Under the pieces are notes generated by a model. It was not told where the DNA came from, did no database searches, and worked only from the letters and a program-made list of their open reading frames with translations. From contig LBUF02000018.1 in assembly GCA_000992445.2 (NCBI GenBank), positions 1-37,061 of the forward strand: DNA of 37,061 nt, written 5' to 3'. The stretch is from Parcubacteria group bacterium GW2011_GWA2_38_13b (GTDB lineage: Bacteria; Patescibacteriota; Minisyncoccia; GWA2-38-13b). Shown here in pieces: positions 5,342 through 29,375 of the stretch. Both the position numbers and the translations under genes were made by a program. Positions within the stretch are counted from its first letter, which is position 1. Each line of letters begins with the position of its first letter.

Positions 5342-5560
5342 TTATTTGTTTTCCAGTTTTTCTTTGTATTCTTTGCAATTAAGGTGAAAATCATCCGGGC
5401 TTAATTTGCGCATCAAATAATTTTTTTCTTGAACAATATTACATCCGTTGCATCCTAATCTTATGATTAGGGTTGATATTATTTCTTTCGGTAAATGCGG
5501 TAATTCTTCCATTGGTCTGCCGCACAAAAAACAAAAATAAGGTTTTTTTTCTTCTTCCAT
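5342..5560 (-). CDS. Small four-cysteine putative zinc-binding protein
   Basis: A 72-residue protein with two CxxC pairs (Cys10/Cys13 in CFLCGRP, Cys37/Cys40 in CNGC), consistent with a single structural zinc site of zinc-ribbon type. It is the last gene of the hydroxyacyl-CoA dehydrogenase/enoyl-CoA hydratase operon, 12 bp after the hydratase stop, with its own GGAGG ribosome site 5 bp before ATG. I do not recognise a named family. The context suggests an accessory to acyl-CoA metabolism, or simply a passenger. Confidence 0.65.
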   Translation of the reverse strand: MEEEKKPYFCFLCGRPMEELPHLPKEIISTLIIRLGCNGCNIVQEKNYLMRKLSPDDFHLNCKEYKEKLENK

Positions 5561-5572
5561 TTTTTCCTCCGT

Positions 5573-6460
5573 TTATTCAAAATTTGGCGTTCGTTTTTCC
5601 AGGAAGGCCGCAATTCCTTCCCGCGCGTCCGGACTAGTCATTGCTATCGCGAAACTTTCTCTCTCAACAGATAGATTGAAATGAAAGTTTGTATTGTTTA
5701 TTGTTTTATCAAGCATTTTTTCAATTAAAACAACTGAACTTTTTGAATACCGCTTCGGCGAATTTGCCGTGGCTGGTATTTTCACTTCACTATTTATAAT
5801 GGAGTCAATCAGGCCGATATTCAACGCTTCTTGGGCATTGAAAGTTACGCTTGTTTTCATATATTCAATGAATTTTTCCTTGTTTATTTTTGGAATAAAT
5901 TTCCAGAATTGCGTTCCGCCCCAGCCCGGTATAAGACCGAGCGTTGCTTCCGGAAAACCAAGGACAGCGTTAGAGGTGGCGATTCGCGCGTGGCAAGCCA
6001 TTGCCAGTTCCAATCCGCCACCCAAGGCAAAACTGTTAATAATCGCGGTGACTTTTTTGGGGCAGAAGAAGATTTTTGAAAGCGCGTTTTGCCCGATTTC
6101 GGAAAAAATCAAAGCTTTTTTATAAAGCGTATTTTTATCCGTTGATGTTTCCAATATTCTTTTGAACGCGTTTATATCCGCTCCAACGGCAAAAATCTTC
6201 GCGTCCGCAAATCCTTCAAGATATACTTCTTTTATGTTATCTTCTTTATCGTTTTCTACAAATTTGTTAAAATCCGCAAAAAAACTTTGCAGCTCTATCA
6301 TCAGGACTAATGGTAAACAAGGTTTTGTTTTTTGTTTTTTTTCGTCAAACGTTTTATCAACGCCAATGAAGCCGACATGCATAATTCCTTTTTCATCAAG
6401 ACCGAATTTTATGTATTTTTCGTATATACATTCGGCCTTTTCTTTTTCTATTTTTTCCAT
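5573..6460 (-). CDS. Enoyl-CoA hydratase (crotonase superfamily), paralogue 1
   Basis: A crotonase-fold protein of 295 residues that should hydrate 2-enoyl-CoA to 3-hydroxyacyl-CoA. The oxyanion-hole segment is FAVGADINAF. Both catalytic glutamates of true hydratases are present: one in SFALGGGLELAMACHARIAT, the other in PEATLGLIPGWGGTQ. The N-terminus is longer than in typical hydratases (about 260 residues) and carries a segment around GVDKTFDEKKQKTKP that is shared with the second hydratase of this window. The start overlaps the dehydrogenase stop: a GTG overlaps the TAG and an ATG follows 3 bp later; the ATG at 6460 is preferred. It is translationally coupled to the dehydrogenase that would use its product. 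Confidence 0.88.
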   Translation of the reverse strand: MEKIEKEKAECIYEKYIKFGLDEKGIMHVGFIGVDKTFDEKKQKTKPCLPLVLMIELQSFFADFNKFVENDKEDNIKEVYLEGFADAKIFAVGADINAFKRILETSTDKNTLYKKALIFSEIGQNALSKIFFCPKKVTAIINSFALGGGLELAMACHARIATSNAVLGFPEATLGLIPGWGGTQFWKFIPKINKEKFIEYMKTSVTFNAQEALNIGLIDSIINSEVKIPATANSPKRYSKSSVVLIEKMLDKTINNTNFHFNLSVERESFAIAMTSPDAREGIAAFLEKRTPNFE

Positions 6461-6462
6461 CA

Positions 6463-7371
6463 CTATTTTTCCTTCCTGTAAAAGTCAAAAATTCCTTTTT
6501 TTACTTTTCGACCAAGAAATCCATCTCGGACCAAATTGCGCAGAATATGAGGCGGTTCATAGCGAGAGCCATGGGCTTCATGTAGAACGCCTACTATATT
6601 TAATACTACATCCCAGCCGATTAAATCGCCGAGTTTTAGAATATCCATAGCTCCGGCAACCCCTGTTTTAACGGACAGGTCAATATCTTCAACATTGCCG
6701 ACATTTTCCTCTAGTGTTCGCAATGCTTCCAGGATAGATGGCATTAGTATTCTATTGCATAAAAATCCGGGCCTGTCCATTGATGTTAAAATCGGCTCTC
6801 TATTTAATCTTTTAGCAAGTCCTTGAACAATACTATATGTTTCATCGGAAGTGCGGTCGCTTTTTATGATTTCCAGTAATTTTAGAATGTAGGGCGGATT
6901 CATAAAGTGCATACCTATAATTTTTGATTTTCGCGTATTGGTTACGGCTTTGCTTATGTCCCAGATTGATATAGATGAAGTGTTTGTTGTTAAAATCGTA
7001 TCCGGTCCGCATAGGCGGTCTAATTCGCGGAAAACCGTTTGTTTTGTTTTCAGGTCTTCAAAAACCGCTTCAATGAATAATTGGGGTTTTTGAACGAATA
7101 TTAAGTCTTCTAGTTTGAGAGGGGTTATGTTAAGTAAAATACTGTTCATATTGTTTATTGCAGACGAGGATATGTTTTCATTCTCATTGCATTGTTTTTT
7201 TAAAGATTTTTGCAACCTCTCCACGATTTTTCTTTTTCCTTCCGTGGCTTTTTCATACGTTTCGTCTATAAGATAAACCGTAAATCCCGCTTCTGCGAAA
7301 ACCTGGGCAATTCCGGAACCCATTGTTCCGGCGCCGACAACGCCAACCGTTTCTATGTTCTTTAAATCCAT
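6463..7371 (-). CDS. 3-hydroxyacyl-CoA dehydrogenase (HBD/PaaH type)
   Basis: A 302-residue NAD-dependent dehydrogenase that oxidises 3-hydroxyacyl-CoA (for example 3-hydroxybutyryl-CoA) to the 3-keto form. The NAD-binding Rossmann motif is VGVVGAGTMGSGIAQVF near residues 9-25. The catalytic dyad is His155 in GMHFMNP and Glu167 in LLEIIKS. The C-terminal dimerisation domain has DRPGFLCNRIL and the closing motif GFLGRKVKKGIFDF. Length matches stand-alone clostridial Hbd. First gene of a three-gene unit with enoyl-CoA hydratase; a strong AAGGAGG lies 4 bp before ATG. It is separated from the upstream prp operon by a terminator. Confidence 0.92.
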   Translation of the reverse strand: MDLKNIETVGVVGAGTMGSGIAQVFAEAGFTVYLIDETYEKATEGKRKIVERLQKSLKKQCNENENISSSAINNMNSILLNITPLKLEDLIFVQKPQLFIEAVFEDLKTKQTVFRELDRLCGPDTILTTNTSSISIWDISKAVTNTRKSKIIGMHFMNPPYILKLLEIIKSDRTSDETYSIVQGLAKRLNREPILTSMDRPGFLCNRILMPSILEALRTLEENVGNVEDIDLSVKTGVAGAMDILKLGDLIGWDVVLNIVGVLHEAHGSRYEPPHILRNLVRDGFLGRKVKKGIFDFYRKEK

Positions 7372-7424
7372 AGGTCCTCCTTAAATTAAAAAATAGCAGA
7401 TAGTTTTTCAAAAAACCGATTTTC

Positions 7425-7514: not shown

Positions 7515-8396
7515 TTACAGTTTGTATCTGATTAAATCGTAAAGTTCCTGCCGTGTTTGCATTTTATCAATAAAGTTCTTTTGCGTGCCGGTTTCTTTAA
7601 GGCATTTAAAAAAATCTTCCATTGCTTTCATAGCTACCCGCATAGCGCTTACCGGAAAAATAACGGCGCTATAATCCATTTCTTTGAATTCTTGCGCTGT
7701 TATATATGGCGTTTTTCCGAATTCCGTCATATTGGCGATAAGCAGCGGTTTGGTCCAGTAAGGTTTGACGAGTTCATAAAAATACCTGAATTCTTCTTTT
7801 GTTTTCAGCGCTTCGGGGAAAATAATATCCGCGCCCGCTTCTTTGTATAGCATAGCTCGGTCTACGATTAAATTTACCGGGAAATTGCATCGCGCGTCCG
7901 TTCTCGCCACAATTAAAAAATCAGAATTTTCTCTAGCTTTTACCGCAGTTTTAATTCTCAATCTCATTTCTTTAATGCTTATTATTTCTTTTTCATTCAA
8001 ATGTCCGCATCTTTTCGGGAATACCTGGTCTTCTATTTGTATCCCCGCGGCTCCGGCTTTTTCCAGTCGTTTGACAGCGTTTTGCAAGTTTCTTGCAGAA
8101 CCAAAACCGGTATCTATATCAACAATTGTCGGTAAGCCCGTGGCTTGAGTTATATCTATCGCCATTTCCAGATATTTGGACGGACTAAAAACATATTTTT
8201 CATTCTTTTTTGACGAATATAATCCGCCGGTGTCGGGTAATCCCCAGCTTTGGTGAAGCGCCGCGCCGGAAACATAAAGCGCTCTAAATCCTATTTTTTC
8301 AGCAAGTTTTGCCGTTAATGGGTTAAATACTCCCGGCATAATAACAGTATCTTCTTGCATTAAACTTTTTAGCGTTGACGCTTTATTCGTTATCAT
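7515..8396 (-). CDS. prpB: 2-methylisocitrate lyase
   Basis: A 293-residue member of the isocitrate lyase/PEP mutase superfamily that splits 2-methylisocitrate into pyruvate and succinate, the last step of the methylcitrate cycle. The catalytic motif KRCGH spans residues 128-132 with the acid/base Cys130. The metal-binding strand is IVDIDTGFGS at 91-100 and the barrel start is VIMPGVFNPLTAKLAEKIGF. A segment near residues 59-78 differs from standard PrpB. The start overlaps the 3' end of prpD by 14 bp, so the genes are translationally coupled. Proximity to prpC and prpD makes a general isocitrate lyase role less likely. Confidence 0.93.
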   Translation of the reverse strand: MITNKASTLKSLMQEDTVIMPGVFNPLTAKLAEKIGFRALYVSGAALHQSWGLPDTGGLYSSKKNEKYVFSPSKYLEMAIDITQATGLPTIVDIDTGFGSARNLQNAVKRLEKAGAAGIQIEDQVFPKRCGHLNEKEIISIKEMRLRIKTAVKARENSDFLIVARTDARCNFPVNLIVDRAMLYKEAGADIIFPEALKTKEEFRYFYELVKPYWTKPLLIANMTEFGKTPYITAQEFKEMDYSAVIFPVSAMRVAMKAMEDFFKCLKETGTQKNFIDKMQTRQELYDLIRYKL

Positions 8397-9819
8397 AATT
8401 GCAATTCCTTAAATGCAACCATATATTTTTTATGTCGGATAATTGTTCCATATTGCGGATGTTGCAAAAAAAGTTTTCATATCGCGGCATGCCATTAAAA
8501 CCGCTGGTTAATTCTGTGAATTTGCTTTCTAATTCTTTGCCGGTTAACGGATTTCGCGGATGACCTTTCGGGTAATATGTTGTTTTTGAATTTATCGTTC
8601 TTACCCCTATATCTATATGGGGGATTTTTTTTACTATTTCAATCGCCACGGGAAAACTTTTTCCGTAAAGCGCAGTGAAATTTGCATCCTCTCTCATAAT
8701 AATTTTGTTTATTAGTTTTTTTACATTCGGATCGCGGATTTTTTCTTCCGTAAAACTATCCAAATCAATTTTGCCGTCAATTAAGGCGCGGGCAACGCAA
8801 TAGGGGATGCTGTGGTCGGCTGTTTCCCGCGTTTTTGGATTCCATTTTGATTTATCGCCTCCGACAATGCTGACAGCCGCTTCGTAGGTTTCTATTTTTA
8901 CAGAAATTATGGAATTAATGTCGGCAATTTCGGGGTAATTTTTTCTTAAATTCAAGATTGTTTCTACCGGCGCTTGAATATGGTATTCCACTGGCCAATT
9001 TTTAATATAAGTTTCCAGAATTTTTTCCGGAACGGGTTTTTCCTCTAAGAATTGGTAAAAACTTTCTTTAAAATCGCCGGTGCGGAAAAGTTGCGGTCTA
9101 AAACCGTATGTTCCTTCGAAAATTCTTTGCGGTCCGGAGATTCCGGCTTCAACCAATTTTACCGCCCTTAAACCATTGCAGGCGGCATTAGCGGCGGCAA
9201 ATCCTTTCCATTCGGAAAGTTCGCCAACTCTTGTTTGGCGCGTATAGGCGCCCATAGCGATCGCGATGGCAATGGCGTTGCGCGTTTGTTCAATATTGAA
9301 TTTTGCTAATTTTGAAGCGCCGCAAGCAACGGAAATCGGCAAATAAGTTACATGATCCCAACCGTTTTTTCTTAAAGAAGCAGCGTCGCATAAGCGACAT
9401 TGAATCTCATAAGACAAAGTGATTGCCATTATAAAATCTTGCGTCGTTGATTTTTTTTCTTCGGCAAACGCCAGAAGAACGGCAATGTTGTCGGAAGGAT
9501 GAGCCGGTTCCAGATTTAAGTAGGTATCATTATAATCAAGATACCTTATCGCCGCGCCGTTGATAAAAGCGGCGGAAACCGTATCTGTCAGCGGCATTGC
9601 GAACGGTCGAATGATTGTGGAATTATGACCGATGTTGTTATAGCCGTATGATTTTGGCGTTATTCCGTATATTTTTTTAATTGTTTCAAATTTCCACGCG
9701 CCCAACGCGCAACCGAACGAATCAATAATTCTTCTTTTTACCTCATTAACAACTTCTGGTTTAAGATTTTCAAAAGAAACAGAATTAACGTAATGAGCAA
9801 GTTTTTTCGCTATTTCCAT
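8383..9819 (-). CDS. prpD: 2-methylcitrate dehydratase (MmgE/PrpD family)
   Basis: A 478-residue MmgE/PrpD protein that dehydrates 2-methylcitrate to 2-methylaconitate. The conserved family landmarks are present: RRIIDSFGCALGAW near the N-terminus, INGAAIRYLDYNDTYL with the active-site Asp/His region (AHPSDNIAVLLA follows), and ETADHSIPYCVARALIDGKI in the C-terminal part. The frame extends to 9843, but ATG 9819 is better: it follows a GGAAGGAAG ribosome site and lies 1 bp after the prpC stop. Rehydration of the aconitate intermediate usually needs AcnD/AcnB or PrpD itself; no aconitase gene is in the window. Confidence 0.92.
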   Translation of the reverse strand: MEIAKKLAHYVNSVSFENLKPEVVNEVKRRIIDSFGCALGAWKFETIKKIYGITPKSYGYNNIGHNSTIIRPFAMPLTDTVSAAFINGAAIRYLDYNDTYLNLEPAHPSDNIAVLLAFAEEKKSTTQDFIMAITLSYEIQCRLCDAASLRKNGWDHVTYLPISVACGASKLAKFNIEQTRNAIAIAIAMGAYTRQTRVGELSEWKGFAAANAACNGLRAVKLVEAGISGPQRIFEGTYGFRPQLFRTGDFKESFYQFLEEKPVPEKILETYIKNWPVEYHIQAPVETILNLRKNYPEIADINSIISVKIETYEAAVSIVGGDKSKWNPKTRETADHSIPYCVARALIDGKIDLDSFTEEKIRDPNVKKLINKIIMREDANFTALYGKSFPVAIEIVKKIPHIDIGVRTINSKTTYYPKGHPRNPLTGKELESKFTELTSGFNGMPRYENFFCNIRNMEQLSDIKNIWLHLRNCNYDNE

Positions 9820-9820
9820 A

Positions 9821-10945
9821 TTAATTTCTTCCTTCCATGCCAATGTATATTTGTTTTTCCGGTCCCGTATATTTTGCTCCGGGTCTGATAATACGATTAT
9901 TAGTTTGTTGTTCTATGATATGCGCTGTCCAGCCGGTCAATCGCGATAACGCAAAAATCGGCGTGAACAATTTTGTCGGAATGCCTAGCAGTTTATAAAC
10001 CGTGGCGGTATAAAAATCCAGATTCGGATAAAGTCCTTTTTCTCGCAATAAAATTTCTTCAATAATTTTGGACATCTCGTACCATTTTAATTCATTTTCT
10101 TCTTCAGAAAGTTTTTTAGCGTACGATTCAATTATGGGCGATCTTGGATCGCCGTTTTTATAAATCGGATGGCCGAAACCCATAATTTTTTGTTTTTTAA
10201 GTAAGGCGTTTTTTATCCATTTTTTTGTTTTTTTCTGGTCATTGATCTCTAAAAGCATTTGCATCACGGCTTCGTTTGCTCCGCCATGCAGCGGTCCTTT
10301 TAACGCGCCTACTGCCGAAAGAATACAAGAAAAATAATCGGAAAGAGTGGAAGCCGTGACGCGCGCATTAAAGGTGGAAGCGGCAAGTTCGTGTTCCGCG
10401 TAGAGTATAAGAGAAACATCAAATGCTTTTTTAGCAAGAGGTGTTAGCGGTTTAGAAGTGATGTTCCGTAAAGTATTTTCTGTGAACGATTCATTTTTTA
10501 ATGACTGGCCATTTTTAAAATCGCCGTTAGTTAACCATCTTAAAATTGATGATATTTTTGCCAAAAGATTTATTGCCAGTATTTCCGTTTTTTGGTTTAA
10601 GTTCATTGTTAAGCCGAAAAAAGAAACTGTAAATTTTAAAACATTCATTGGGTGCGCGTTTCGCGGAATTTGATCCAGTATAATTTTCAATTTAGTTGCT
10701 TCTTGGGTATATTGGCAAATTTGATTTTCCAAAAGACATTTGGAAAATTCCCGAAGTTCTCGGTAAACAGGCAAATGTCCTTTTATAAGCAGATACGCCG
10801 TTTCTTCAAAGCAGCTTTTTTTCGCTAAATCTTTAAGGTCGTATCCTCGGTACAGTATTGTTTTTAATTCATGGTCCAATTTTACAATTTTTGTTTTTGC
10901 GACTTCCATTCCTCTTAATCCCGTCGTCGTTGTTTTTTCTGGCAT
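9821..10945 (-). CDS. prpC: 2-methylcitrate synthase / citrate synthase family
   Basis: A 374-residue citrate-synthase-family enzyme. It condenses oxaloacetate with propionyl-CoA (or acetyl-CoA). The catalytic triad is visible: His220 in GPLHGGANEAV, His259 in GFGHPIYK, and Asp310 in NLDFYTA. The N-terminal TTGLRGMEVAKTKI and YRGYDLKDLA are typical of the short type II-like enzymes that include PrpC. Sequence alone does not separate citrate from methylcitrate synthase, but the position as first gene before prpD and prpB supports PrpC. AAGGGGGG precedes ATG by 7 bp. Confidence 0.9.
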   Translation of the reverse strand: MPEKTTTTGLRGMEVAKTKIVKLDHELKTILYRGYDLKDLAKKSCFEETAYLLIKGHLPVYRELREFSKCLLENQICQYTQEATKLKIILDQIPRNAHPMNVLKFTVSFFGLTMNLNQKTEILAINLLAKISSILRWLTNGDFKNGQSLKNESFTENTLRNITSKPLTPLAKKAFDVSLILYAEHELAASTFNARVTASTLSDYFSCILSAVGALKGPLHGGANEAVMQMLLEINDQKKTKKWIKNALLKKQKIMGFGHPIYKNGDPRSPIIESYAKKLSEEENELKWYEMSKIIEEILLREKGLYPNLDFYTATVYKLLGIPTKLFTPIFALSRLTGWTAHIIEQQTNNRIIRPGAKYTGPEKQIYIGMEGRN

Positions 10946-11140: not shown

Positions 11141-12439
11141 ATGAAAATTGATTCAAGGCATTTGGATTTTTTTGATTTGGACAGACATTTATCCGAAGAA
11201 AATTTAGCGGTTAGGGATTCTATCCGGAAATTTACAAATGAAATATTATTAGAAAAACCAAAAATGGGCGAATTGCCGTTGGTAGCGGAATTGTACCGGC
11301 GGGGCGCATTGCCTCTTGACGAAAAATTTACATTTATGAGAGAAAACAAAGAAGAGGTTATAATATTGAGGCAATATTTGGCGGATTTAGGTTTATTCCA
11401 AATCTGTCTTAGCGCTACGATGAGATTGGACGGGAAAAATGAAAAAGAGACGGAAAGTTATGGTATAACCCCGGGTTTTGATTATTTTTCTTACGGCGTC
11501 GCGATGCGGGAAATTGAAAGAGGCGATTCGGGGATACGGAGTTTTGTTTCCGTTCAATGCGGATTAGTTATGAATGCAATTTATTCTCTCGGCTCCGAAG
11601 AGCAAAAATTAAAATGGCTGCCTCTTTTGGCATCGGGTCAAAAAATTGGTTGTTTCGGCGCCACCGAATCGGGGTCCGGTTCTAATGTTGCGGGTTATAA
11701 AACAAAAGCGATTAAAGACGGTAAATATTATATATTAAATGGGACAAAGGAATGGATAACTAGCGCCGCGGCGCTTGCCGACATTGCGATTATTTGGGCG
11801 AAAACCGAAGACGGAGTTTTGCGCGCGTTTATCGTAGAGAGGGGAACTCCCGGATTCGTGACTTCTAAAATAAAATACAAAAATTCAATGCGTGCTTCGG
11901 ACACTGGTTGCATTTCTTTGACGGATTGTAAAATTCCTGAAGAAAATATTTTGCCGATTTTTTATCCGCCAGGATCGGGCAATAAATCATTGTTGCAATG
12001 TTTTAGCCAAGCTAGATTTGGCATTGGTTGGGGTATGATCGGGGCGGCGCAGGCGTGCTATGAAGCGGCGCATAATTTTGTCGCAATACGAGAAGTCAGC
12101 GGCGGAATGCTTGATGGCAAGCAATTTATTCATGGCGATTTTGCGAAAATGGCGCGATTTATAAGTTGTATGCAGCTTTTTGCCAATGAGATGACAGTAT
12201 TGAAAGAAGAAAAAAAGCTTGAACATGAATATATCTCTATGGTAAAAATGAATAATTGTGATTTGGCGTTTGAAGTCGCAAGAATCGCCGATGAGATTGT
12301 CGCATCTTCTTCTAAAACAGATGAGATTTGTATTGGCCGTCACTTGAATAATAGTCGCGCCGTTGGCACTTATGAGGGCACATGCTATGTTCATGAATTG
12401 ATTATAGCGCACGCTTTATTAGGGAAATGGGCCTTGTAG
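11141..12439 (+). CDS. Acyl-CoA dehydrogenase, glutaryl-CoA dehydrogenase-like, divergent
   Basis: A 432-residue FAD enzyme closest in sequence pattern to glutaryl-CoA dehydrogenase. Matching landmarks are ERGDSGIRSFVSVQCGLVM (Arg133 at the substrate-carboxylate position), GCFGATESGSGSNV, LNGTKEWITSA, NSMRASDTGCISL and the catalytic Glu412 in GTYEGTCYVHELI. Two things are odd. The usual R-x-x-F/G-x-P segment that holds FAD of the next subunit reads REVSGGMLDG, and the family GGNG motif before the last helix is replaced by ASSSKTDE. There is also an insertion around residues 42-75. Electrons would go to the ETF encoded downstream in this window. Substrate uncertain: glutaryl-CoA or a related CoA ester. 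Confidence 0.82.
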   Translation: MKIDSRHLDFFDLDRHLSEENLAVRDSIRKFTNEILLEKPKMGELPLVAELYRRGALPLDEKFTFMRENKEEVIILRQYLADLGLFQICLSATMRLDGKNEKETESYGITPGFDYFSYGVAMREIERGDSGIRSFVSVQCGLVMNAIYSLGSEEQKLKWLPLLASGQKIGCFGATESGSGSNVAGYKTKAIKDGKYYILNGTKEWITSAAALADIAIIWAKTEDGVLRAFIVERGTPGFVTSKIKYKNSMRASDTGCISLTDCKIPEENILPIFYPPGSGNKSLLQCFSQARFGIGWGMIGAAQACYEAAHNFVAIREVSGGMLDGKQFIHGDFAKMARFISCMQLFANEMTVLKEEKKLEHEYISMVKMNNCDLAFEVARIADEIVASSSKTDEICIGRHLNNSRAVGTYEGTCYVHELIIAHALLGKWAL

Positions 12440-12452: not shown

Positions 12453-13325
12453 TTGATTGAATTTGGCGATTTTATGATATGTTGCGTGAATGACGGATTT
12501 TTTAAATTAGACGGGGGAGCGATGTTTGGCATTGTTCCCAAGCCAGTTTGGGAAAAAAATAATCCGGCTGACGAAAAAAACAGAATACCGCTTTCTTTAA
12601 ATTGCTTGCTTATCCAAAATAGAAAAACCACCGCGACTATTTTAGTTGATACGGGTATAGGCGTCAAAAACAACGAGACGCGGGAAAAATTCAGAAAATT
12701 TTACGATTTTAAGCGTTCCTGCCTTGTTGAAAACATATATAATATTATGGGATTGTTGCCGCAAGATATAAGTTTTGTCGTAAACACTCACTTACATTTG
12801 GATCACGCGGGTGGCAATACTTATTTTTGCGAAAAAGAAGGAAAGGAAAAAATCACTTTTTATAATGCCCGATACATAGTTCAAAAAGGGGAGCTGGAAG
12901 CGGCGTTAGCTGATAACGAAAGGACGAATGGAAGTTATCTTAAAGAAAGTATTAAAATTCTTTGCGACAATAAAGACAATCTTGTGCTTGTTGATAGAGA
13001 TAATAAAGAGATAATAAAAGGAGTGAGTATTATTAAAACAGGTGGACACACTGGGCATCATCAATGCGTTAAGATTGTTTCTGGCGGTAGAACTGCTTTT
13101 TATTTGGGCGATTTGATTCCGACGGTTTCACATTTGAATCCAGTGTGGATTATGGGATACGATCTGTATCCATTGGATACATTGTATATGAAAGAAAAAT
13201 TGCTTAATCAGGCGTGTGAAGAAAATTGGCTTTTGGTTTTTGAGCATGATCCGGAAGCAGCTACGGGGTATTTAAGAAAAGATAACGATGGATGGAAAAT
13301 TGAGCGCGTAGAAAAAGTTCAATAA
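12453..13325 (+). CDS. Metallo-beta-lactamase-fold hydrolase
   Basis: A 290-residue MBL-fold protein with the dinuclear metal motif THLHLDHAGG (His113, His115, Asp117, His118), a third His in TGGHTGHHQ, the bridging Asp in YLGDLIPT and a last His in FEHDPEA. The arrangement resembles lactonase-like (AiiA/AttM) and general thioester- or lactone-cleaving hydrolases. The start is TTG 12453: TAGGAGGA lies 9 bp upstream, whereas the next ATG (12474) has no good ribosome site. It is 13 bp after the acyl-CoA dehydrogenase, so it may hydrolyse a product of that enzyme, for example a CoA thioester or lactone. The substrate is inferred, not seen. Confidence 0.82.
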   Translation: MIEFGDFMICCVNDGFFKLDGGAMFGIVPKPVWEKNNPADEKNRIPLSLNCLLIQNRKTTATILVDTGIGVKNNETREKFRKFYDFKRSCLVENIYNIMGLLPQDISFVVNTHLHLDHAGGNTYFCEKEGKEKITFYNARYIVQKGELEAALADNERTNGSYLKESIKILCDNKDNLVLVDRDNKEIIKGVSIIKTGGHTGHHQCVKIVSGGRTAFYLGDLIPTVSHLNPVWIMGYDLYPLDTLYMKEKLLNQACEENWLLVFEHDPEAATGYLRKDNDGWKIERVEKVQ

Positions 13326-18549: not shown

Positions 18550-18582
18550 ATTTCCTCCGTATTGATTTTTCAAATAACTTTT

Positions 18583-20546: not shown

Positions 20547-20553
20547 ATTCACC

Positions 20554-21756: not shown

Positions 21757-23319
21757 ATGGATGAAAAAAATAAAGAAAAATTGTTTTGCAAAAAACCGGT
21801 TGATGAATTTGATTATTCGCTGCAATTGGGTGATCCGGGGCAATACCCTTATACTCGTGGAATTCATCCGCGAATGTACGCGGAACGGCTTTGGACGATG
21901 CGGCAATTTTCTGGATTTGGTTCCGCCGAGGACACTAATAAAAGATTCAGGTATTTATTGGAACACGGCGAAACGGGATTTTCCACGGCATTTGATATGC
22001 CGACACTTTTCGGGAAAGATTCAGACAATCTTGTTTATGGAAAAGAAACGGGTTTATGCGGAGTTGCTATCGATACTTTGGCGGATATGGAAATTCTTTT
22101 TAATGAAATTGATTTGAATCCGCCGATTTCCACTTCAATGACAATCAACGCGCCGGCCATAATTTTATTTGCGATGTATTTGGCGGTTGCGGAGAAAAAA
22201 GGCGTTGATTGGAAAAATTTGCGCGGAACAATCCAAAACGACATTTTGAAGGAATATATCGCGCAAAAGGAATGGATTTTTCCGCCGGAACCGTCTATGC
22301 GGCTTATTACTGATATTATTGAATTTTGCGTGAAATATGTTCCGCAATGGTATCCGATAAGCATCAGTGGTTATCATATTCGCGAAGCAGGTTCAACAGC
22401 GGCGCAAGAATTGGGTTTTACTTTGCGTGACGGCATTGAGTATGTTGAATGGGCGATAAGAGCTGGCTTGAAAGTCGATGATTTCGCGCCGCGACTTTCT
22501 TTCTTTTTTGATTCTTGCGAGAATTTTTTTGAAGAAATCTCTAAATTTCGGGCTGCTCGACGGATGTGGGCGCGGATAATGAAGGAAAGATTTCACTCCG
22601 AAAATGATAAGTCGCGCCAGCTGCGTTTTCATACACAGACAAGCGGTCTCAGTTTACAGGCGGTTGAGCCGGAAAACAATGTAATACGTACAACACTTCA
22701 AGCGTTGGCCGCTGTTTTGGGTGGCACTCAATCGCTTCATACCAATTCACGCGATGAGACATTATGTTTGCCTACCGAAGAAGCGGTAAAAATCGCTTTG
22801 CGGACACAGCAAATTATTGCTTATGAAAGCGGAATAATAAATGCGGTTGATCCGTTAGGCGGTTCTTATCACATTGAGGATTTAACGAATAAATTGGAAG
22901 CCGAAGCAATGGAGTATATTAAAAAAATAGATGAAATGGGCGGAATGATCGAGGCCATTGAACAAGGTTATCCGCAAAGAGAAATAAGACGCTCCGCTTT
23001 CGAACGCGCTAAAAAAACAGCAATGGCGGAAAAGGTTGTTGTCGGTGTAAATAAATTTCCAACGAAAGAAAAATTGATCATTCCGGTTTTAAAAATTGAT
23101 CCGGAAATCCACATAAAACAAGTTAAGCGTCTTAATGAAATTAAACAAGAGCGCGATAATTTCAAGGTTAAGCAATGTCTTGAAAATATCAGTTGCGCCG
23201 CAGCGTCAAAAGACAATCTTGTGTTTCCGGTCATTGAAGCAGTAAGAAATTACGCGACAATCGGCGAGATTTGCATGGCATTTGAAAAAGTATGCGGAAG
23301 ATACGAGGAGAAAGTTTAA
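21757..23319 (+). CDS. icmA: B12-dependent acyl-CoA mutase catalytic subunit, isobutyryl-CoA mutase-like
   Basis: A 520-residue catalytic (TIM-barrel) subunit without its own B12 domain. Aligned by eye to methylmalonyl-CoA mutase (MCM), RLWTMRQF has Phe51 where MCM has substrate-specific Tyr89, and QNDILKEYIAQ has Gln170 where MCM has Arg207. Phe/Gln is the published pair of isobutyryl-CoA mutase; hydroxyisobutyryl-CoA mutase has Ile and an extra Asp, here Ala78 in FSTAFD. The catalytic His is His207 in ISGYH, and Arg44, Arg49 and Gln160 are kept. It would interconvert isobutyryl-CoA and n-butyryl-CoA. The stop is 12 bp before the B12/GTPase fusion gene, AAAGGAG between. Automatic annotation would probably call it MCM. 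Confidence 0.85.
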   Translation: MDEKNKEKLFCKKPVDEFDYSLQLGDPGQYPYTRGIHPRMYAERLWTMRQFSGFGSAEDTNKRFRYLLEHGETGFSTAFDMPTLFGKDSDNLVYGKETGLCGVAIDTLADMEILFNEIDLNPPISTSMTINAPAIILFAMYLAVAEKKGVDWKNLRGTIQNDILKEYIAQKEWIFPPEPSMRLITDIIEFCVKYVPQWYPISISGYHIREAGSTAAQELGFTLRDGIEYVEWAIRAGLKVDDFAPRLSFFFDSCENFFEEISKFRAARRMWARIMKERFHSENDKSRQLRFHTQTSGLSLQAVEPENNVIRTTLQALAAVLGGTQSLHTNSRDETLCLPTEEAVKIALRTQQIIAYESGIINAVDPLGGSYHIEDLTNKLEAEAMEYIKKIDEMGGMIEAIEQGYPQREIRRSAFERAKKTAMAEKVVVGVNKFPTKEKLIIPVLKIDPEIHIKQVKRLNEIKQERDNFKVKQCLENISCAAASKDNLVFPVIEAVRNYATIGEICMAFEKVCGRYEEKV

Positions 23320-23331: not shown

Positions 23332-24480
23332 ATGAAAAAGAAAAAAAGGATTATTTTAGTTAAAGCCGGTTTGGACGGCCATGATCAAGGGATAAATGTT
23401 ATAAAGGATTTTTTAATTGAAGAAGGTTATGAAGTATTTTATTTTGGTCTTTATCGCCAGATGCGCGATATCGCCGAAATGGCGATTCAGGAAGGCGTTG
23501 ATTTTATCGGGTTAAGCGTTCATAATGCCGCTCACTTTGAATATACCAAAGAAATTTATGATTATTTGAAAAAACATAATGCTCTTGATATAGCGATGGT
23601 TGTCGGAGGAATTATTCCCGAAGAAGATAAGATTGTTCTTGAAAAAGATTTTGGGGTGAAACATGTTTTTGTTTCCGGAACACACGATGCGAATTTGAAC
23701 GACATTAAAGATTTTTTCAGAAAAAACTCAGGAAGAAATATAAATCCGAAGCTTATTTTAGAAAATAAAAGTAAGAATAATCTTGGCCTGTTTATTTCCG
23801 AACTTGCCAATGGTTCCGAGGAAGCATTGGGGATTGTCAAAAATTTGTTGTGCAAAGATGTTTTAACGATTGGCATTACTGGCCATCAAGGCGTTGGCAA
23901 AAGTACTTTGATAGACCATCTTATTACCCAATTCCGAATTTTAAACAAAAAAGTCGGCGTTATAGCGGTTGATCCCAGCGATTGTATTTTCGGCGGAGCG
24001 TTTCTCGGAGGAGACAGGACGAAAATGTGGCGCCATCTTTTTGATGAGAATGTCCATATTTACAGTATGGCGACTAGGGACGGACATGGCGGGATTGCCG
24101 ACACGACCGGATTGGCGGTAAAGGCGATGAAAATAGTCGGTTGCGATATTGTTATCGTGGAAACAATCGGCGTAGGACAAGATCAAACGGCGGTGCGGAC
24201 GATTGCCGATATGACCGGATTAATTTTAACTCCGGACACCGGCGAAGATCAGGTTTACAAATCAGGCATTATGCAGGTTGCCGATTTTTATGTGATAAAT
24301 AAAACGGATATTATGCCGGCTTTGCCGTTGGAAAAATTTTTGAATGAAATGTTGGATAATAAGGTAAATTTCAGCGGTAAGTCAAAATCGCGGCCGTTTA
24401 TTATTAGCACAAATAATAAAAATTGTTTGGGCATCCAAAAATTGTCGGAAAAAATATTGGAATACGGGAGAAATTTATGA
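23332..24480 (+). CDS. Fusion of B12-binding domain (mutase small subunit) and MeaB/MeaI-type GTPase chaperone
   Basis: A 382-residue two-domain protein. Residues 5-130 are a cobalamin-binding Rossmann domain: LDGHDQG (Asp15-x-His17-x-x-Gly20, His17 being the cobalt ligand), GLSVHNAAH and VVGGIIPEED. Residues about 150-382 are a G3E-type GTPase like MeaB/ArgK: Walker A GHQGVGKST (184-192), VIAVDPSDCIFGGAFLGGDR, IVETIGVGQDQT and the guanine motif NKTD. IcmF enzymes carry B12, GTPase and mutase domains in one chain; here the mutase domain is a separate preceding gene, so this pair is a split IcmF. Loading and repair of B12 would be built into the small subunit. The stop overlaps etfB (ATGA). 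Confidence 0.9.
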   Translation: MKKKKRIILVKAGLDGHDQGINVIKDFLIEEGYEVFYFGLYRQMRDIAEMAIQEGVDFIGLSVHNAAHFEYTKEIYDYLKKHNALDIAMVVGGIIPEEDKIVLEKDFGVKHVFVSGTHDANLNDIKDFFRKNSGRNINPKLILENKSKNNLGLFISELANGSEEALGIVKNLLCKDVLTIGITGHQGVGKSTLIDHLITQFRILNKKVGVIAVDPSDCIFGGAFLGGDRTKMWRHLFDENVHIYSMATRDGHGGIADTTGLAVKAMKIVGCDIVIVETIGVGQDQTAVRTIADMTGLILTPDTGEDQVYKSGIMQVADFYVINKTDIMPALPLEKFLNEMLDNKVNFSGKSKSRPFIISTNNKNCLGIQKLSEKILEYGRNL

Positions 24481-25226
24481 ATATCATAGTTTGCGTGAAA
24501 CAAGTGCCGGATATTGAAAAGCCCGTAAAGATTGCCGGAAAAGTCATAGATGAAAGTTCCGATTTCGTTCTTAATCCCTTGGACGAACATGCGATTCAGC
24601 AGGCGGTTATTGTTAAAGAAAAATTAGGCGGTAAAATTATTGTTTTGACTTTAGGGCCGGAACGCGCCAAGCAAGCATTATTGAGATGTCTTGCGCGGGG
24701 AGCGGACGAAGCGATTCATTTGAAAACTGACAATGATTGCAATTTTGATTCGACTGCCGTGTCTGTTATTTTGGCGGAAAAAATCAAGACATTGCCTTTT
24801 GATATAATTTTTTTCGGAGGTAAGGCCGTTGATACTAATAGCGGCGATTGCGGCGTTCAGGTTGCGAAAATTTTTGGCATTCCCTGTATTCCGGAAATTA
24901 TCAAATTGGAAATTGATAATGAAAAAGTCGTTGCCGTAAGGCAGGTGGATAATGGAGAAGAAATGGTTGAATGTTCGCTTCAGGCGGTTTTTACCTGCCA
25001 GAAGGGAATAAATGAATTGAGTATTTTGCCGCTCCCAAAAATTATGCAGGCCAAAAGAAAACCATTGAAGGTTGAAGATGTTTGCGTGAATAATAGATTT
25101 TCAGAAATCATTGATCTTGAAGTTTTGCCCAATAAAAGAGGTGGTCTTATTCTAGAAGGAAATCCCGAGGAACAAGTTAAGCGATTGGTTGAAATTTTCA
25201 AAAAACAGGGGATTTTGAGGGAATGA
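24477..25226 (+). CDS. etfB: Electron transfer flavoprotein beta subunit
   Basis: A 249-residue ETF beta subunit: MNIIVCVKQVPD start, LNPLDEHAIQQAV, VLTLGPERAKQALLRCLARG, the FAD/AMP-proximal FFGGKAVDTNSGDCGVQVA, and the family tail motif IMQAKRKPLK. With EtfA it accepts electrons from acyl-CoA dehydrogenases. ATG 24477 overlaps the preceding stop (ATGA) and its own TGA overlaps the etfA start, so the three genes are translationally coupled. The frame extends upstream into the previous gene, but the domain start fits 24477. Confidence 0.95.
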   Translation: MNIIVCVKQVPDIEKPVKIAGKVIDESSDFVLNPLDEHAIQQAVIVKEKLGGKIIVLTLGPERAKQALLRCLARGADEAIHLKTDNDCNFDSTAVSVILAEKIKTLPFDIIFFGGKAVDTNSGDCGVQVAKIFGIPCIPEIIKLEIDNEKVVAVRQVDNGEEMVECSLQAVFTCQKGINELSILPLPKIMQAKRKPLKVEDVCVNNRFSEIIDLEVLPNKRGGLILEGNPEEQVKRLVEIFKKQGILRE

Positions 25227-26218
25227 AAATGGAAAACATTTTTGTTTTTATTGAACTTGAATCAGGCGCGATTACCAAATCAGGCATTGAGGTTTTGGGA
25301 AAAGCGCGCGAACTTGCCGACAAATACAGCAAACAAGTGGTAGGATTGGTGCTGGGCAATGATTTCAATAATTTTGCCGGTTTGCTTGATTGTTTGGCGC
25401 GATTAGGAGCTGATGAATTTTTACTGGCAGAAAGCGATAAATTTACGGATTACAACAGCGAGATATACGGGAAAATTATTTGCGGGGAAATTGAAAAATT
25501 AAAACCGCAAATTGTCCTTTTGGGTTCTTCCAAGATTGGCAAGGAACTTGCCGCGCAAATTTCCGCGAAATTTTTAAGTTGTTGTTTTCAGGATTGCGTT
25601 GACATTGACATTGAAGGCGATTTTTTGAAAGCAAAGCGGTTGGTTTTGGCGGGGAAGGCATTCGTGACTTTAAAAAGCAAATGTTCGCAATTTCAAGTTG
25701 CGACATTGCGGCAGGGAATTTTTCAGCCAAAAATCATAGGTAAAGACGCGGAAATTACGCGAATGGATGTTCCCGCTGATTTAGTTAGCAGAATTATTAG
25801 AAAAGAATTTACTGGCAGAACTTCCGGCAAAGTTTCTTTATTGGGAGCAAAAATTATTGTGTCCGGCGGCAGGGGGATGAAAAGCGGGGAAAATTTCAAA
25901 ATTCTTGAAGAGTTAGCTGATGTTTTTGGTGGAGCCGTAGGCGCTTCTCGTGGCGCGGTTGATCTTGAATTTCGTGTTTTCGATGACCAAGTGGGTTTAA
26001 CTGGGAAAACAGTATCGCCGCAAATTTATATCGCTTGCGGCATTTCCGGCGCGCCACAGCATTTGGCAGGGATTACACAGGCAAAATTTATAGTCGCGAT
26101 AAACAAAGATTCGGGGGCGCCGATATTTAAAGCGGCGGATATGGGAATCGTCGGGGATTTGTTTGAAATCGTTCCTCTTTTGACGAAATCGTTGAAAAAT
26201 TTGAAGGGAGAAAAGTAA
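25223..26218 (+). CDS. etfA: Electron transfer flavoprotein alpha subunit
   Basis: A 331-residue ETF alpha subunit. The C-terminal FAD domain shows the signature IIVSGGRGMKSGENFKILEE, then FGGAVGASRGAVD (Arg contacting FAD), QVGLTGKTVSPQIYIACGIS with GAPQHLAGI, and the closing AINKDSGAPIFKAADMGIVG. No N-terminal ferredoxin extension is present, so it is an ordinary dehydrogenase-linked ETF rather than a clear bifurcating type. Overlaps etfB by 4 bp. The electron acceptor is probably the EtfD-type protein encoded 1.3 kb downstream on the other strand. Confidence 0.95.
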   Translation: MKMENIFVFIELESGAITKSGIEVLGKARELADKYSKQVVGLVLGNDFNNFAGLLDCLARLGADEFLLAESDKFTDYNSEIYGKIICGEIEKLKPQIVLLGSSKIGKELAAQISAKFLSCCFQDCVDIDIEGDFLKAKRLVLAGKAFVTLKSKCSQFQVATLRQGIFQPKIIGKDAEITRMDVPADLVSRIIRKEFTGRTSGKVSLLGAKIIVSGGRGMKSGENFKILEELADVFGGAVGASRGAVDLEFRVFDDQVGLTGKTVSPQIYIACGISGAPQHLAGITQAKFIVAINKDSGAPIFKAADMGIVGDLFEIVPLLTKSLKNLKGEK

Positions 26219-26220
26219 AT

Positions 26221-27447
26221 ATGTTTGGACGAATAAAAAGAAAAGTATTTATAGTTTTTGCTTGCCGGACGCCTATAGGAAATTTCGGCGGAATGTTTAA
26301 GTACGATTCCGCTGTTGATTTAGGCGCGACGGCGCTTCACGGCGTTATGCGTAGAGTCGATGCGAATAATGAATATTTTTTGGGTTCGTATGATTTTATG
26401 AGGTGTAATGTTTTTATGGGGAATGTTTTGTCAGCCGGTTTGGGACAAAATCCGGCGCGACAGGCGGCGCATAAAGCGGGTTTTTCATGGGAATCGCCAT
26501 GCGTGACAATCAACAAAGTTTGCGGTTCCGGAATGCAGGCGATAATTTGCGCTTACGATGCCATAAAAAGCGGTCGGATTGATTTGGCATTTGCCGGCGG
26601 AATGGAAAGTATGACGAACTCGCCTTATTTCATTAGGCGTCAGTTGGAAGTTACGGGGAAGGGTAATTCAAAACTTATGGTTGGCGATATGGCAATTGAT
26701 TTTGGCAAGGATGCTTTTTGTGTCGATTCTATGATGCGCGATGGTTTATCTGATGCTTACGGTCATAGAAAAATGGTTGAAATCGCCGATGAATGCGCTA
26801 AAAGATTTGGAATATCAAGAGGAGATCAGGATGAATATGCCAAATTAAGCAATGAACGGGCGATTCACGCGTTTCAAAATCGTATGTTTGAAAATGAAAT
26901 TGTTCCGGTTGAAAATTTTTTCAAAGACGAAGGAATGAATAAGTTTAATCCGGAAAAAATTCTAACATTAAATCCCATTTGCGATGGAGGGAGCATAACT
27001 GCCGCCAGCGCTTCAAAGATAAGCGATGGAGCGGCGGCTTTGATGATTGCGTCCGAGGAAATAGTTGAGAGATTTGGAATAACTCCAATAGCGGAAATTG
27101 TTGATACACTAGAATATGGCGGATTGCCGGAAGAATTTCCAATTGCGCCGTCAAGAGCCATAGGTCGGTTACTTGAACAAAATAAATTAATACTTAAAAA
27201 CATTGGTTTATTTGAAATCAACGAGGCATTTGCCGTGGTGCCTCTTATAGCTATAAAAACATCGGAAATACCTATTGAAAAAATTAATATTCACGGCGGA
27301 GCCGTGGCGTTGGGGCATCCGATTGGGGCATCAGGCGCAAGAATTGTGGTGACGCTGGTTCATGCGTTGAGCAGTAAAGAATTAGGTATTGCTTCCGTTT
27401 GCATCGGCGGCGGCGAAGCACTGGCGATGCTTGTAAGAAAAGTTTAA
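26221..27447 (+). CDS. atoB: Acetyl-CoA acetyltransferase (canonical thiolase)
   Basis: A 408-residue type II thiolase, last gene of the mutase/ETF operon, 2 bp after etfA. All catalytic sites are present: Cys101 in INKVCGSGMQA, NEAFA, His in VALGHPIGASGAR and the second Cys in VCIGGGEALAM. It would split acetoacetyl-CoA into two acetyl-CoA at the end of butyryl-CoA oxidation, or run in reverse. In contrast to the thiolase-like protein at 15122-16528, this one is complete. A terminator follows 16 bp after the stop. Confidence 0.95.
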   Translation: MFGRIKRKVFIVFACRTPIGNFGGMFKYDSAVDLGATALHGVMRRVDANNEYFLGSYDFMRCNVFMGNVLSAGLGQNPARQAAHKAGFSWESPCVTINKVCGSGMQAIICAYDAIKSGRIDLAFAGGMESMTNSPYFIRRQLEVTGKGNSKLMVGDMAIDFGKDAFCVDSMMRDGLSDAYGHRKMVEIADECAKRFGISRGDQDEYAKLSNERAIHAFQNRMFENEIVPVENFFKDEGMNKFNPEKILTLNPICDGGSITAASASKISDGAAALMIASEEIVERFGITPIAEIVDTLEYGGLPEEFPIAPSRAIGRLLEQNKLILKNIGLFEINEAFAVVPLIAIKTSEIPIEKINIHGGAVALGHPIGASGARIVVTLVHALSSKELGIASVCIGGGEALAMLVRKV

Positions 27448-27463
27448 AATATAGATAATTTTA

Positions 27464-27497
27464 AAAATCCCTTTGTTGAAATCAACGAAGGGATTTT
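27464..27497. terminator. Bidirectional terminator between thiolase and etfD genes
   Basis: AAAATCCCTTTGTTGA (27464-27479) pairs with TCAACGAAGGGATTTT (27482-27497) with one G-T/C mismatch site, flanked by A and T tracts. It lies between convergent genes. Confidence 0.8.
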
Positions 27498-27515
27498 ATA
27501 TTTGGAGATTTATTT

Positions 27516-29375
27516 TTATAAATTTAAAATTTCTGCAATATCCATAATTTTTACATCTTCTATGTTTTTCTTTTTTAACGAGTCGTCAAGCATCATAAAG
27601 CAAAATGGGCAGGCGGTTGCGATAATATCCGGATCGGATTTAAGCAATTGTTCCAATCGTATATCGTTGATTTTTTGTCCTTCAGTTTCTTCCATAAACG
27701 CTCTGCCTCCGCCTCCGCCGCAACAAAAAGAATCTTCGCGAGATTTTCCCATTTCTTTAATATTCGCACAAATTTTCCAGTCTATTAGCCGTCGCGGCTC
27801 TTCATAAATATTGTTGTACCGCCCGAGATAACACGGGTCGTGGTACACAATATTCTTCATTGAAAAATCTTTTGATTTGATGTGCAATTTTTTTCGTTTC
27901 ATTAAGTTAGCCAGAAATTCCGTATGGTGCCACACTTTAAAGTCGCTTCCGAATTCCTGATATTCATTTTTGAAAGTATTATAACAATGCGGGCAGAAAG
28001 TGATAATTTCTTTTATGCCGTATCGCTTGAAAATTTCAATGTTTTCCCGGGTAATGATTTGGAAAAGATATTCATTTCCGATTTTTCGTATCCATTCGCC
28101 GCAACAAATTTCTTCCTTGCCTAAAATTCCGAATTTTACGCCGGAGTTATGCATTATTTTGGCAAGATTTTGCGGAATTTTTTGCAGACGACTATCTGAA
28201 GCGCCACCGCAGCCGACCCACAAAAGAATGTCAAATTTTTGATTCTCGTATATTTTCGGCAGGGAGAAAGGAAGTGTTTTTGTCCAATCCTCTTTTTGCT
28301 CTTTTTGAGTTCCGTACGGATTGCCGAATTTTATTTGACCTTCGGCGGAAATGACATTTTCCAGCGCCAATTGCGTTTCCGGCGGTAAATTTCCGGCAAT
28401 CATTGATTGAAATCTTCGCAGTTCAATGATTTTCGGCAAATGCTCAATGAATATCGGGCAGTTTTGCTGGCAAGCGCCGCAAGTGGTGCAATTCCATAGC
28501 TCGTTGGAAGAAATAATATTTTTATTTTCATTTTTTCGCGCTAAATTTTTATTCAGTTTTTGTATTATTGTTTTTGGCGATAATGATTTATCGGAAATGT
28601 TTGCGGGACAAACCGCGTCGCAGCGTCCGCATCTCATGCAGGCGAATGTGTCCAGCATTTGTTTCCAGCTGAATCGTGTAAGGCAGAAGTCTTTTTGGTT
28701 TTCAGCCGTTAAATTTTTTTCATTTTCAACGTCAAAATATGGCAGGTAGCCGAAAGATTTAAGTGATTTGAAAAAAATATTCGGCAAAGCCAAAAATATA
28801 TGCAGATATTTTGAGAATGGCATATAATTCAAAAAACTTAATAGAATCAGTAAGTGTCCGTATTCCGCGTAAATTTTATTTTGATTTGTCGCGAAAGTGT
28901 TTGCGTATAAGTCGCTGGCTTTAAGTCCGAGAATAAAAAAGAGACAAATCAATCCATCCCAATCAAGCGTTAATTCTTTTGGTTTGGTTACAATGCGCCG
29001 ATAGATAAAATAAAACACCGATAGTATGACAATGGCGCTTGTGATTTGACATATTGCGAGATACGCGTTTCCCGCTTTTCCCAAAAGATGAATCAGGGAG
29101 TAATTAAATAAAATTTCGCTCGCGAAATTTACATTAACAAGAAATAACAAAAAAAATCCCCAAAATAGCGCCGCGTGCATTACGCCGGCAATTTTGTTGC
29201 GAAACACTCTTTTTTGCCCGAAGCCGAAGATTAAAAGTGATTTCAGGCGAGTAGATATTTTATCAAATCTGTTTTCCGGTTTCGCTTTCCAGATAATGGC
29301 AATTTTCTTCGCGGCATTATAGAAAAAAAATGCTACGCCGATCGCAAAAAAAATCAACGCAAAATTAATATTCAT
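27516..29375 (-). CDS. Membrane FeS protein, EtfD-type ETF:quinone oxidoreductase (HdrD-like)
   Basis: A 619-residue protein with an N-terminal membrane part of about five or six helices (residues 1-215), then two [4Fe-4S] motifs CMRCGRCDAVCP and CTTCGACQQNCP, then two CCG domains: CCGEWIRKIG with CPHCYNTF, and DPCYLGRYNN with CCGGGGGRAF. This order is that of the membrane FeS oxidoreductase (EtfD, FadF-like) that passes electrons from EtfAB to menaquinone. Its place beside the etfBA operon supports this. Ribosome site GGAGG lies 7 bp before ATG. The N-terminal helices may carry heme b, but I cannot assign ligands confidently. Confidence 0.9.
   Translation of the reverse strand: MNINFALIFFAIGVAFFFYNAAKKIAIIWKAKPENRFDKISTRLKSLLIFGFGQKRVFRNKIAGVMHAALFWGFFLLFLVNVNFASEILFNYSLIHLLGKAGNAYLAICQITSAIVILSVFYFIYRRIVTKPKELTLDWDGLICLFFILGLKASDLYANTFATNQNKIYAEYGHLLILLSFLNYMPFSKYLHIFLALPNIFFKSLKSFGYLPYFDVENEKNLTAENQKDFCLTRFSWKQMLDTFACMRCGRCDAVCPANISDKSLSPKTIIQKLNKNLARKNENKNIISSNELWNCTTCGACQQNCPIFIEHLPKIIELRRFQSMIAGNLPPETQLALENVISAEGQIKFGNPYGTQKEQKEDWTKTLPFSLPKIYENQKFDILLWVGCGGASDSRLQKIPQNLAKIMHNSGVKFGILGKEEICCGEWIRKIGNEYLFQIITRENIEIFKRYGIKEIITFCPHCYNTFKNEYQEFGSDFKVWHHTEFLANLMKRKKLHIKSKDFSMKNIVYHDPCYLGRYNNIYEEPRRLIDWKICANIKEMGKSREDSFCCGGGGGRAFMEETEGQKINDIRLEQLLKSDPDIIATACPFCFMMLDDSLKKKNIEDVKIMDIAEILNL

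Follow-up and report, generated by a model that had tools for sequence, protein, structure and literature searches.

Introduction

Can a bacterium of the Candidate Phyla Radiation (CPR), a group in which beta-oxidation is rare, oxidise short and branched acids by respiration, and which acids would such a system use? The question is raised by contig LBUF02000018.1 of Parcubacteria group bacterium GW2011_GWA2_38_13b, where a sequence-only reading had proposed an acid-oxidation island at 5342-29375. The window analysed here is the entire contig (C18) of 37,061 bases; the genome to which it belongs has 21 contigs totalling 874,952 bases and is 95% complete and 0.15% contaminated. It contains an island of 20 genes at 5573-29375 (Table 1). 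All genes named for the island are present as intact open reading frames (ORFs) with strong profile matches (Pfam, NCBIfam), and its right end stands as proposed while its left end does not, the first island gene starting at 5573. The island is very likely the system by which 'Candidatus Parcunitrobacter nitroensis' oxidises short- and branched-chain acyl-CoA through respiration, a predicted isobutyryl-CoA mutase included. This reading draws directly on the genes present, on intact catalytic residues, on residue signatures, on counts of neighbouring genes and on the CPR setting; the substrates, the direction of flux and the coupling to nitric oxide (NO) are what we infer beyond these.

Identity of the genome

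As a gene set the island is already known. Ca. P. nitroensis GWA2_OD1-rel_38_13 was described with a genome of 0.884 Mb in 18 scaffolds and 37.8% GC, a single 16S gene interrupted by three insertions of 157-214 nt, and a gyrA scaffold that also encodes a 9-heme HAO-like protein, a decaheme cytochrome and two tetraheme ones (Castelle et al., 2017; PMC5220378). Its published, co-located set comprises PrpC/D/B, a mutase, two acyl-CoA dehydrogenases (ACADs) of GCDH and SBCAD types, two hydratases, one 3-hydroxybutyryl-CoA dehydrogenase (HBD), two thiolases, an AMP-forming synthetase, an electron transfer flavoprotein (ETF), an Fe-S oxidoreductase and NO reductase (PMC5220378). The genome studied here is almost certainly that organism itself, because the same features recur. 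Its 16S carries three insertions, the spacing of conserved blocks exceeding the usual one by roughly 150-180 nt at three positions; contig C1 encodes at 80-90 kb four cytochromes, whose CxxCH motifs number 4, 9, 4 and 10, and has gyrA at 119-121 kb; and the gene content of the island is identical. The sequence-only reading had regarded the island as adding to what Ca. P. nitroensis, the known exception, can do, which no longer applies as the set was listed in 2017. The isobutyryl-CoA assignment of the mutase is new relative to Castelle et al. (2017).

Proposed reassignment of the mutase

The mutase is a 520-aa subunit lacking a B12 domain, which is supplied by the next gene in a split Icm arrangement. 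It was previously called methylmalonyl-CoA mutase (MCM), serving propionate oxidation or succinate-propionate fermentation, with the carboxylase and epimerase noted as missing (Castelle et al., 2017; PMC5220378). The best NCBIfam match, TIGR00641 'methylmalonyl-CoA mutase N-terminal domain', agrees with this name, though it is a superfamily-level model. Both diagnostic residues, however, are altered. In alignment with PDB chains, Phe51 stands at MCM Tyr89 and Gln170 at MCM Arg207, with Ala78 between them, while natural MCM chains in the PDB are Tyr/Ala/Arg (YAR) and 2-hydroxyisobutyryl-CoA mutase is Ile/Asp/Gln. Phe together with Gln is the pair known from isobutyryl-CoA mutase (ICM), in IcmA and IcmF (Phe80/Gln198; Phe598/Gln742 in IcmF). 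MCM was rejected on the Phe/Gln pair, and 2-hydroxyisobutyryl-CoA mutase was rejected on Phe and Ala, where that enzyme has Ile and Asp (MCM Tyr89 and Ala116 positions). Among 101 aligned mutase rows, which include the window's own copy twice, 77 are Phe/Ala/Gln (FAQ) and 22 YAR.

The neighbourhoods of the two types differ accordingly in 80 non-CPR loci retrieved by the mutase alone (20 YAR, 60 FAQ). Methylmalonyl-CoA epimerase (TIGR03081) is found near 17 of the 20 YAR mutases vs none of the 60 FAQ ones, MmdA-type carboxyltransferase near 13/20 vs 1/60, and an ACAD near 0/20 vs 15/60, counts which overstate the number of events since related genomes are not independent, although the split is still clean. 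The PF01039 carboxyltransferase was not found in this 95% complete genome, with 12 of 14 control genomes positive. The mutase thus looks like the ICM type, with its substrate predicted from these residues and neighbourhoods, and the MCM assignment is unlikely. The isobutyryl-CoA route of the sequence-only reading is in this way upheld against the published annotation. The published gap closes with it, because a mutase of isobutyryl-CoA and butyryl-CoA needs neither carboxylase nor epimerase, and the predicted product, butyryl-CoA, would feed the neighbouring beta-oxidation genes.

The adjoining B12-MeaB gene encodes a 382-aa protein that, among PDB chains, best matches the front portion of IcmF (4xc6), with the same domain order. 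Of the 71 B12-domain ORFs in the non-CPR loci, none carries a MeaB fusion; such fusions were seen in the window and in G243, G040, G127 and G173, all of them CPR genomes of the same class, while other CPR mutases have the B12 domain on the mutase itself or as a separate small protein. Within this sample the fusion is CPR-restricted, and it is not universal in CPR. IcmF itself, a one-chain B12-GTPase-mutase, was considered as an identity and set aside, as there are two genes here with the mutase first.

Proposed pathway

Catalytic residues are intact in both hydratases, both ACADs and the canonical thiolase, so that these are not decayed genes. Entry to the pathway would be through the AMP-forming acyl-CoA synthetase (ACS). 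Aligned to acetyl-CoA synthetases, it has INISGGTE in place of DTWWQTE, the Trp becoming Gly428. This Trp is known to restrict the pocket to acetate, and because it is replaced, the enzyme is expected from its sequence to accept larger short or branched acids. With such an enlarged acyl pocket it would activate free isobutyrate, 2-methylbutyrate, butyrate or propionate; against the PrpE model it scores 355 bits with a cut-off of 827, and it may accept propionate.

Isobutyryl-CoA would then be converted to butyryl-CoA by the B12-dependent mutase, formed by the large subunit and a second protein that joins the B12 domain to a dedicated MeaB-like GTPase chaperone, and butyryl-CoA would pass through hydratase, HBD and thiolase to acetyl-CoA. 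The GCDH-type ACAD keeps its catalytic base (Glu412), and its Arg133 aligns with the carboxylate (glutarate)-binding Arg of the human enzyme; crotonyl-CoA from this enzyme could enter the same hydratase, HBD and thiolase route, if glutaryl-CoA is available. From 2-methylbutyryl-CoA the predicted products are acetyl-CoA and propionyl-CoA, the latter being processed by PrpC, PrpD and PrpB to pyruvate and succinate. This agrees with the complete methylcitrate core and the propionyl-CoA route claimed earlier: all three Prp genes are present, PrpB and PrpC just under the curated NCBIfam cut-offs and PrpD well below.

Only one of two presumed thiolases is canonical. The protein at 15122-16528 has GGATGG where the nucleophilic Cys would be, and Cys is replaced by Gly in all aligned close relatives. 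The adjacent DUF35-like protein matches PF01796 and PF12172 below threshold, its homologue in locus L039 matching above threshold. Thiolase-like aldolases with DUF35 partners exist, e.g., Ltp2-ChsH2, and by analogy the pair may act as an aldolase or as a C-C lyase of another kind. Cys-less relatives also stand beside FAQ mutases in the Myxococcota loci L039, L046, L060 and L062, and one with 54% identity occurs in the CPR genome G107.

Electron transfer

Electrons from the ACADs would flow through EtfAB to a membrane EtfD/EMO enzyme, and from there to the quinone pool, a bc-type complex and a cytochrome c-dependent NO reductase (cNOR). The Fe-S oxidoreductase at 27516-29375 matches mycobacterial EtfD (PDB 9ojn), in which heme ligands His78 and His241, quinone-site Phe85 and Phe230 and cluster ligand His583 are described (PMC13083937). 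The aligned residues here are H67 and H192 (heme), F74 and F181 (quinone site) and the His of a CPHC motif (cluster), and the protein has the heme b His pair, Fer4 and two CCG domains. It is of EtfD/EMO type, a predicted ETF:menaquinone oxidoreductase unrelated to ETF-QO. The earlier designation 'ETF:quinone oxidoreductase' would still suit an ETF-linked quinone enzyme of this type and fails for ETF-QO; classical ETF-QO (FixC/ETFDH) was ruled out, as 27516-29375 has no Pfam match to a FAD-binding ETF-QO domain. Castelle et al. (2017) likewise found no ETF:QO, reporting the Fe-S oxidoreductase instead (PMC5220378). The right flank, beyond what the sequence-only reading covered, holds a cNOR pair, a norC-like gene followed by norB, the latter a member of the NorB sequence family.

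Gene inventory and remaining genes

Table 1. Features of the window, with coordinates on the contig, strand and supporting matches.
Feature	Position	Strand	Evidence
rarA/mgsA, left flank marker	3610..4752	+	83% identity to same-class genome G003
Enoyl-CoA hydratase 1	5573..6463	-	Pfam ECH_1 1.8e-28; both catalytic Glu motifs
3-hydroxybutyryl-CoA dehydrogenase (HBD)	6463..7371	-	Pfam 3HCDH_N 5.8e-49; NF004474 4.5e-75
prpB, methylisocitrate lyase	7515..8396	-	TIGR02317 1.4e-99, 333 vs 354 bits cut-off
prpD, 2-methylcitrate dehydratase	8383..9843	-	Pfam MmgE_PrpD N and C
prpC, 2-methylcitrate/citrate synthase	9821..10945	-	TIGR01800 5.1e-124, 414 vs 421 bits cut-off
Acyl-CoA dehydrogenase, glutaryl-CoA dehydrogenase (GCDH) type	11141..12439	+	best PDB matches glutaryl-CoA dehydrogenases, 1e-70
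Metallo-beta-lactamase-fold (MBL) hydrolase, lactonase-like	12453..13325	+	PF00753
Acyl-CoA dehydrogenase, butyryl/short-branched (Bcd/SBCAD) type	13439..14602	-	best PDB matches ETF-linked Bcd-type enzymes, 8.5e-92
DUF35/ChsH2-like OB-fold partner of thiolase-like protein	14614..15111	-	PF01796, PF12172 sub-threshold
SCP2-type thiolase-like protein without nucleophilic Cys (GGATGG)	15122..16528	-	Pfam, PDB
AMP-forming acyl-CoA synthetase, Gly428 for Trp of DTWWQTE	16537..18573	-	profile scans, alignment
Enoyl-CoA hydratase 2	18692..19579	-	Pfam; catalytic residues intact
panB homologue (ketopantoate hydroxymethyltransferase)	19617..20552	-	PF02548 8e-75; TIGR00222 212 vs 208 bits cut-off
Unnamed 320-aa protein, distant U32-peptidase-like	20554..21516	-	30% over 78% to annotated Thermomicrobium U32 peptidase
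Isobutyryl-CoA-mutase-type large subunit (predicted; F51, A78, Q170)	21757..23319	+	profile scans, PDB alignment
B12-binding domain fused to MeaB-type GTPase	23332..24480	+	profile scans, PDB match
etfB	24477..25226	+	PF01012
etfA	25223..26218	+	PF01012, PF00766
Acetyl-CoA acyltransferase (canonical thiolase)	26221..27447	+	TIGR01930 352 vs 241 bits cut-off; Cys101, His366, Cys394
EtfD/EMO-type membrane ETF:menaquinone oxidoreductase (predicted)	27516..29375	-	PDB 9ojn_A 2.6e-97
Cys-rich protein, multicopy family, right flank marker	30505..32292	-	12 matches on this genome's contigs
norC-like diheme cytochrome c	34827..35516	+	Cytochrom_C; CHTFFGIGGYY motif and second CxxCH
norB, nitric-oxide reductase subunit B	35501..36856	+	PDB 4xyd_A 1.1e-81, 3o0r_B 5.9e-81; HLWVEG at 198

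The metallohydrolase is a neighbour of the GCDH-type ACAD; relatives occur ahead of prpC in the CPR genome G040 (38%) and in locus L007 (45%). The PanB homologue is paired, inside the island, with the U32-peptidase-like protein, which has no Pfam match, and no homologue of either was present in any other mutase locus examined. According to Castelle et al. (2017) the Ca. P. nitroensis genome contains no CoA biosynthesis (PMC5220378).

On the left flank, Pfam and NCBIfam scans identified a DsrE-like protein, a MerR-type regulator, an HI0933-like flavoprotein, RarA and Gmad2, while a kinase-like protein, the Cys-rich protein, DeoC, two membrane proteins and the cytochrome c and NorB genes lie to the right of the island. 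A 69% identical copy of the DsrE-like gene (251-577) is located just past the mutase and B12-MeaB genes of CPR genome G243 (L146:12443-12766). The Cys-rich family has several copies in tandem on contig C21 and is absent from most class genomes. Searches of the window for tRNA and Rfam RNA found none.

Alternative explanations

Several points weigh against the respiratory, isobutyryl-CoA-based system proposed here. The aligned rows include no characterised ICM at the diagnostic positions, and no paper stating ICM active-site residues was found in the openly licensed literature; most FAQ relatives are themselves uncharacterised. The mutase tree has a long branch and an arbitrary root and offers no clear donor, nested placement or CPR sisters; recent transfer from an identifiable donor is unsupported by this tree, given the lack of nested placement, and a megablast of 12 kb against plasmids found nothing. 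No PrpE-type ligase was found among the island genes, and cleavage of 2-methylacetoacetyl-CoA is left without a certain enzyme because the thiolase-like protein lacks its nucleophile. As to identity, 21 contigs and 0.875 Mb differ slightly from the published 18 and 0.884. The pathway could also run in reverse, from acetyl-CoA to butyryl-CoA or isobutyryl-CoA, with butyrate or isobutyrate as electron sink. Butyrate production was also offered by Castelle et al. (PMC5220378), most core steps are reversible, and clostridial Bcd-Etf enzymes are the nearest solved ACADs. The EtfD/EMO link to quinone and NO reductase nevertheless favours oxidation, and the AMP-forming synthetase and PrpBCD are genes of the uptake direction, making the reductive reading rather unlikely.

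A different objection is that the contig, or the island alone, comes from a bacterium outside CPR and was placed in a CPR bin, as contamination or a chimera. Rarity of beta-oxidation in CPR speaks for this, as does the fact that the window spans a complete contig and has no linkage beyond its ends. The tetranucleotide correlation is in range at 11.5-37 kb (0.72-0.77; genome mean 0.733, SD 0.052), but the block at 5.6-11.5 kb gives 0.54, below the minimum of sampled 6-kb genome pieces (0.605), and is the least typical part of the window. It is not read as foreign because codon usage is normal there: each tested window gene, all island genes included, lies within 2 SD of 206 genes elsewhere in the genome, and no break in codon usage is seen at the island edges. 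The flank markers are of CPR type. RarA, 0.8 kb from the island, shares, besides its closest same-class match (Table 1), 69-71% identity with two further same-class genomes and at most 49% with the copies in the listed non-CPR plasmid records. Paralogues of the Cys-rich right-flank gene, reaching 78% over parts, are spread over several further contigs of the genome, and other class genomes contain full-length relatives of 44-51%. The B12-MeaB fusion is seen only in CPR loci, and binning was checked by ESOM and abundance in the original study (Castelle et al., 2017; PMC5220378). RarA, the insertion-bearing 16S and the small genome place the organism in CPR, within a class presumably of Parcubacteria/Paceibacteria type, a name we take over by way of the Castelle paper; it is the sole representative of its order in the genome collection compared. 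Contamination by non-CPR DNA or a chimera is hence very unlikely; both were ruled out on rarA, codon usage, the multicopy family and the CPR-only fusion. The claim of a CPR genome with a genuine island is thereby borne out.

Related modules in other CPR genomes

Across 384 genomes of the class, the mutase was found in 20, ACAD in 60, EtfA in 5 and PrpD (PF03972) in 4. In a separate draw of 335 class genomes, strong EtfD matches were confined to this genome, G159, G229 and G294; G382, itself EtfD-bearing, was outside that draw. G382 (L158, L159; 246-271 kb of its contig C1) has ACAD, EtfD, EtfA, EtfB, a short MeaB, an ACAS-type ligase and a thiolase-like gene near 2-oxoacid oxidoreductase, glutamate dehydrogenase and aminotransferase genes. 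Its mutase is of YAR type; judged by gene content, this G382 region resembles an island for amino-acid oxidation. In G229, small contigs carry EtfD-EtfA-EtfB and an ACAD. On contig C28 of G040 (L182, L157, L183; 10-59 kb), a set of ~33 kb comprises a metallohydrolase, PrpC, PrpD, PrpB, 2-oxoacid dehydrogenase E1, a Phe/Gln mutase with fused B12-MeaB, an ACAD, a ligase, another ACAD, two thiolases and an HBD-hydratase fusion. ETF was not detected in the G040 genome, which leaves its ACADs without an evident electron acceptor. G040 and G127 share PrpCDB, a Phe/Gln mutase with fused B12-MeaB and an ACAD. The modules of G382, G229 and G040 are partial analogues of the window island. Literature searches of openly licensed papers found no report of these other CPR islands.

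The published claim of a respiratory CPR bacterium has thus been independently re-examined and holds, while under the mutase reassignment the predicted diet is no longer just propionate but takes in isobutyrate and other branched acids, which neighbours usually release when they ferment protein. With modules in other CPR families, respiration of scavenged acids by some CPR becomes testable beyond one genome. The wider proposition, that Ca. P. nitroensis respires branched short-chain acids by means of a putative isobutyryl-CoA mutase and a CPR-restricted B12-MeaB chaperone, and that several other CPR families have retained or acquired related modules, seems to us evenly poised. If true, living on scavenged acids derived from amino acids would recur among CPR bacteria and would have been overlooked.

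Comparison with known systems

The genome and its island resemble published Ca. P. nitroensis in gene inventory and co-location, genome size, GC, 16S insertions, heme cluster and gyrA on the same contig (PMC5220378). They differ in having one canonical thiolase and one Cys-less thiolase-like protein vs two acetyl-CoA acetyltransferases, and a mutase that appears to be of isobutyryl-CoA type vs the methylmalonyl-CoA assignment. As in IcmF (PDB 4xc6), the B12 domain is directly followed by the G-protein domain; there the chain then continues into the mutase domain, whereas here the mutase has a separate gene placed before. Syntrophothermus lipocalidus uses an isobutyrate route of the same logic, in which isobutyryl-CoA is converted to butyryl-CoA by a split mutase with MeaB, followed by beta-oxidation (PMC5017805). 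That organism is a syntroph that produces H2/formate, and its B12 subunit and MeaB are separate proteins, while here there is one B12-MeaB protein and electron disposal is predicted to be quinone- and NO-linked. The predicted oxidoreductase shares with mycobacterial EtfD (PDB 9ojn; PMC13083937) and EMO the membrane heme b domain, 4Fe-4S clusters, two CCG domains and conserved ligands, but has 619 vs 1042 aa and a CPR host. Finally, the NO reductase is like cNOR (PDB 4xyd, 3o0r) in its NorB with HLWVEG motif and adjoining cytochrome c, and unlike it in that the cytochrome c subunit has two CxxCH motifs, the second C-terminal, and is diheme rather than the usual monoheme NorC.

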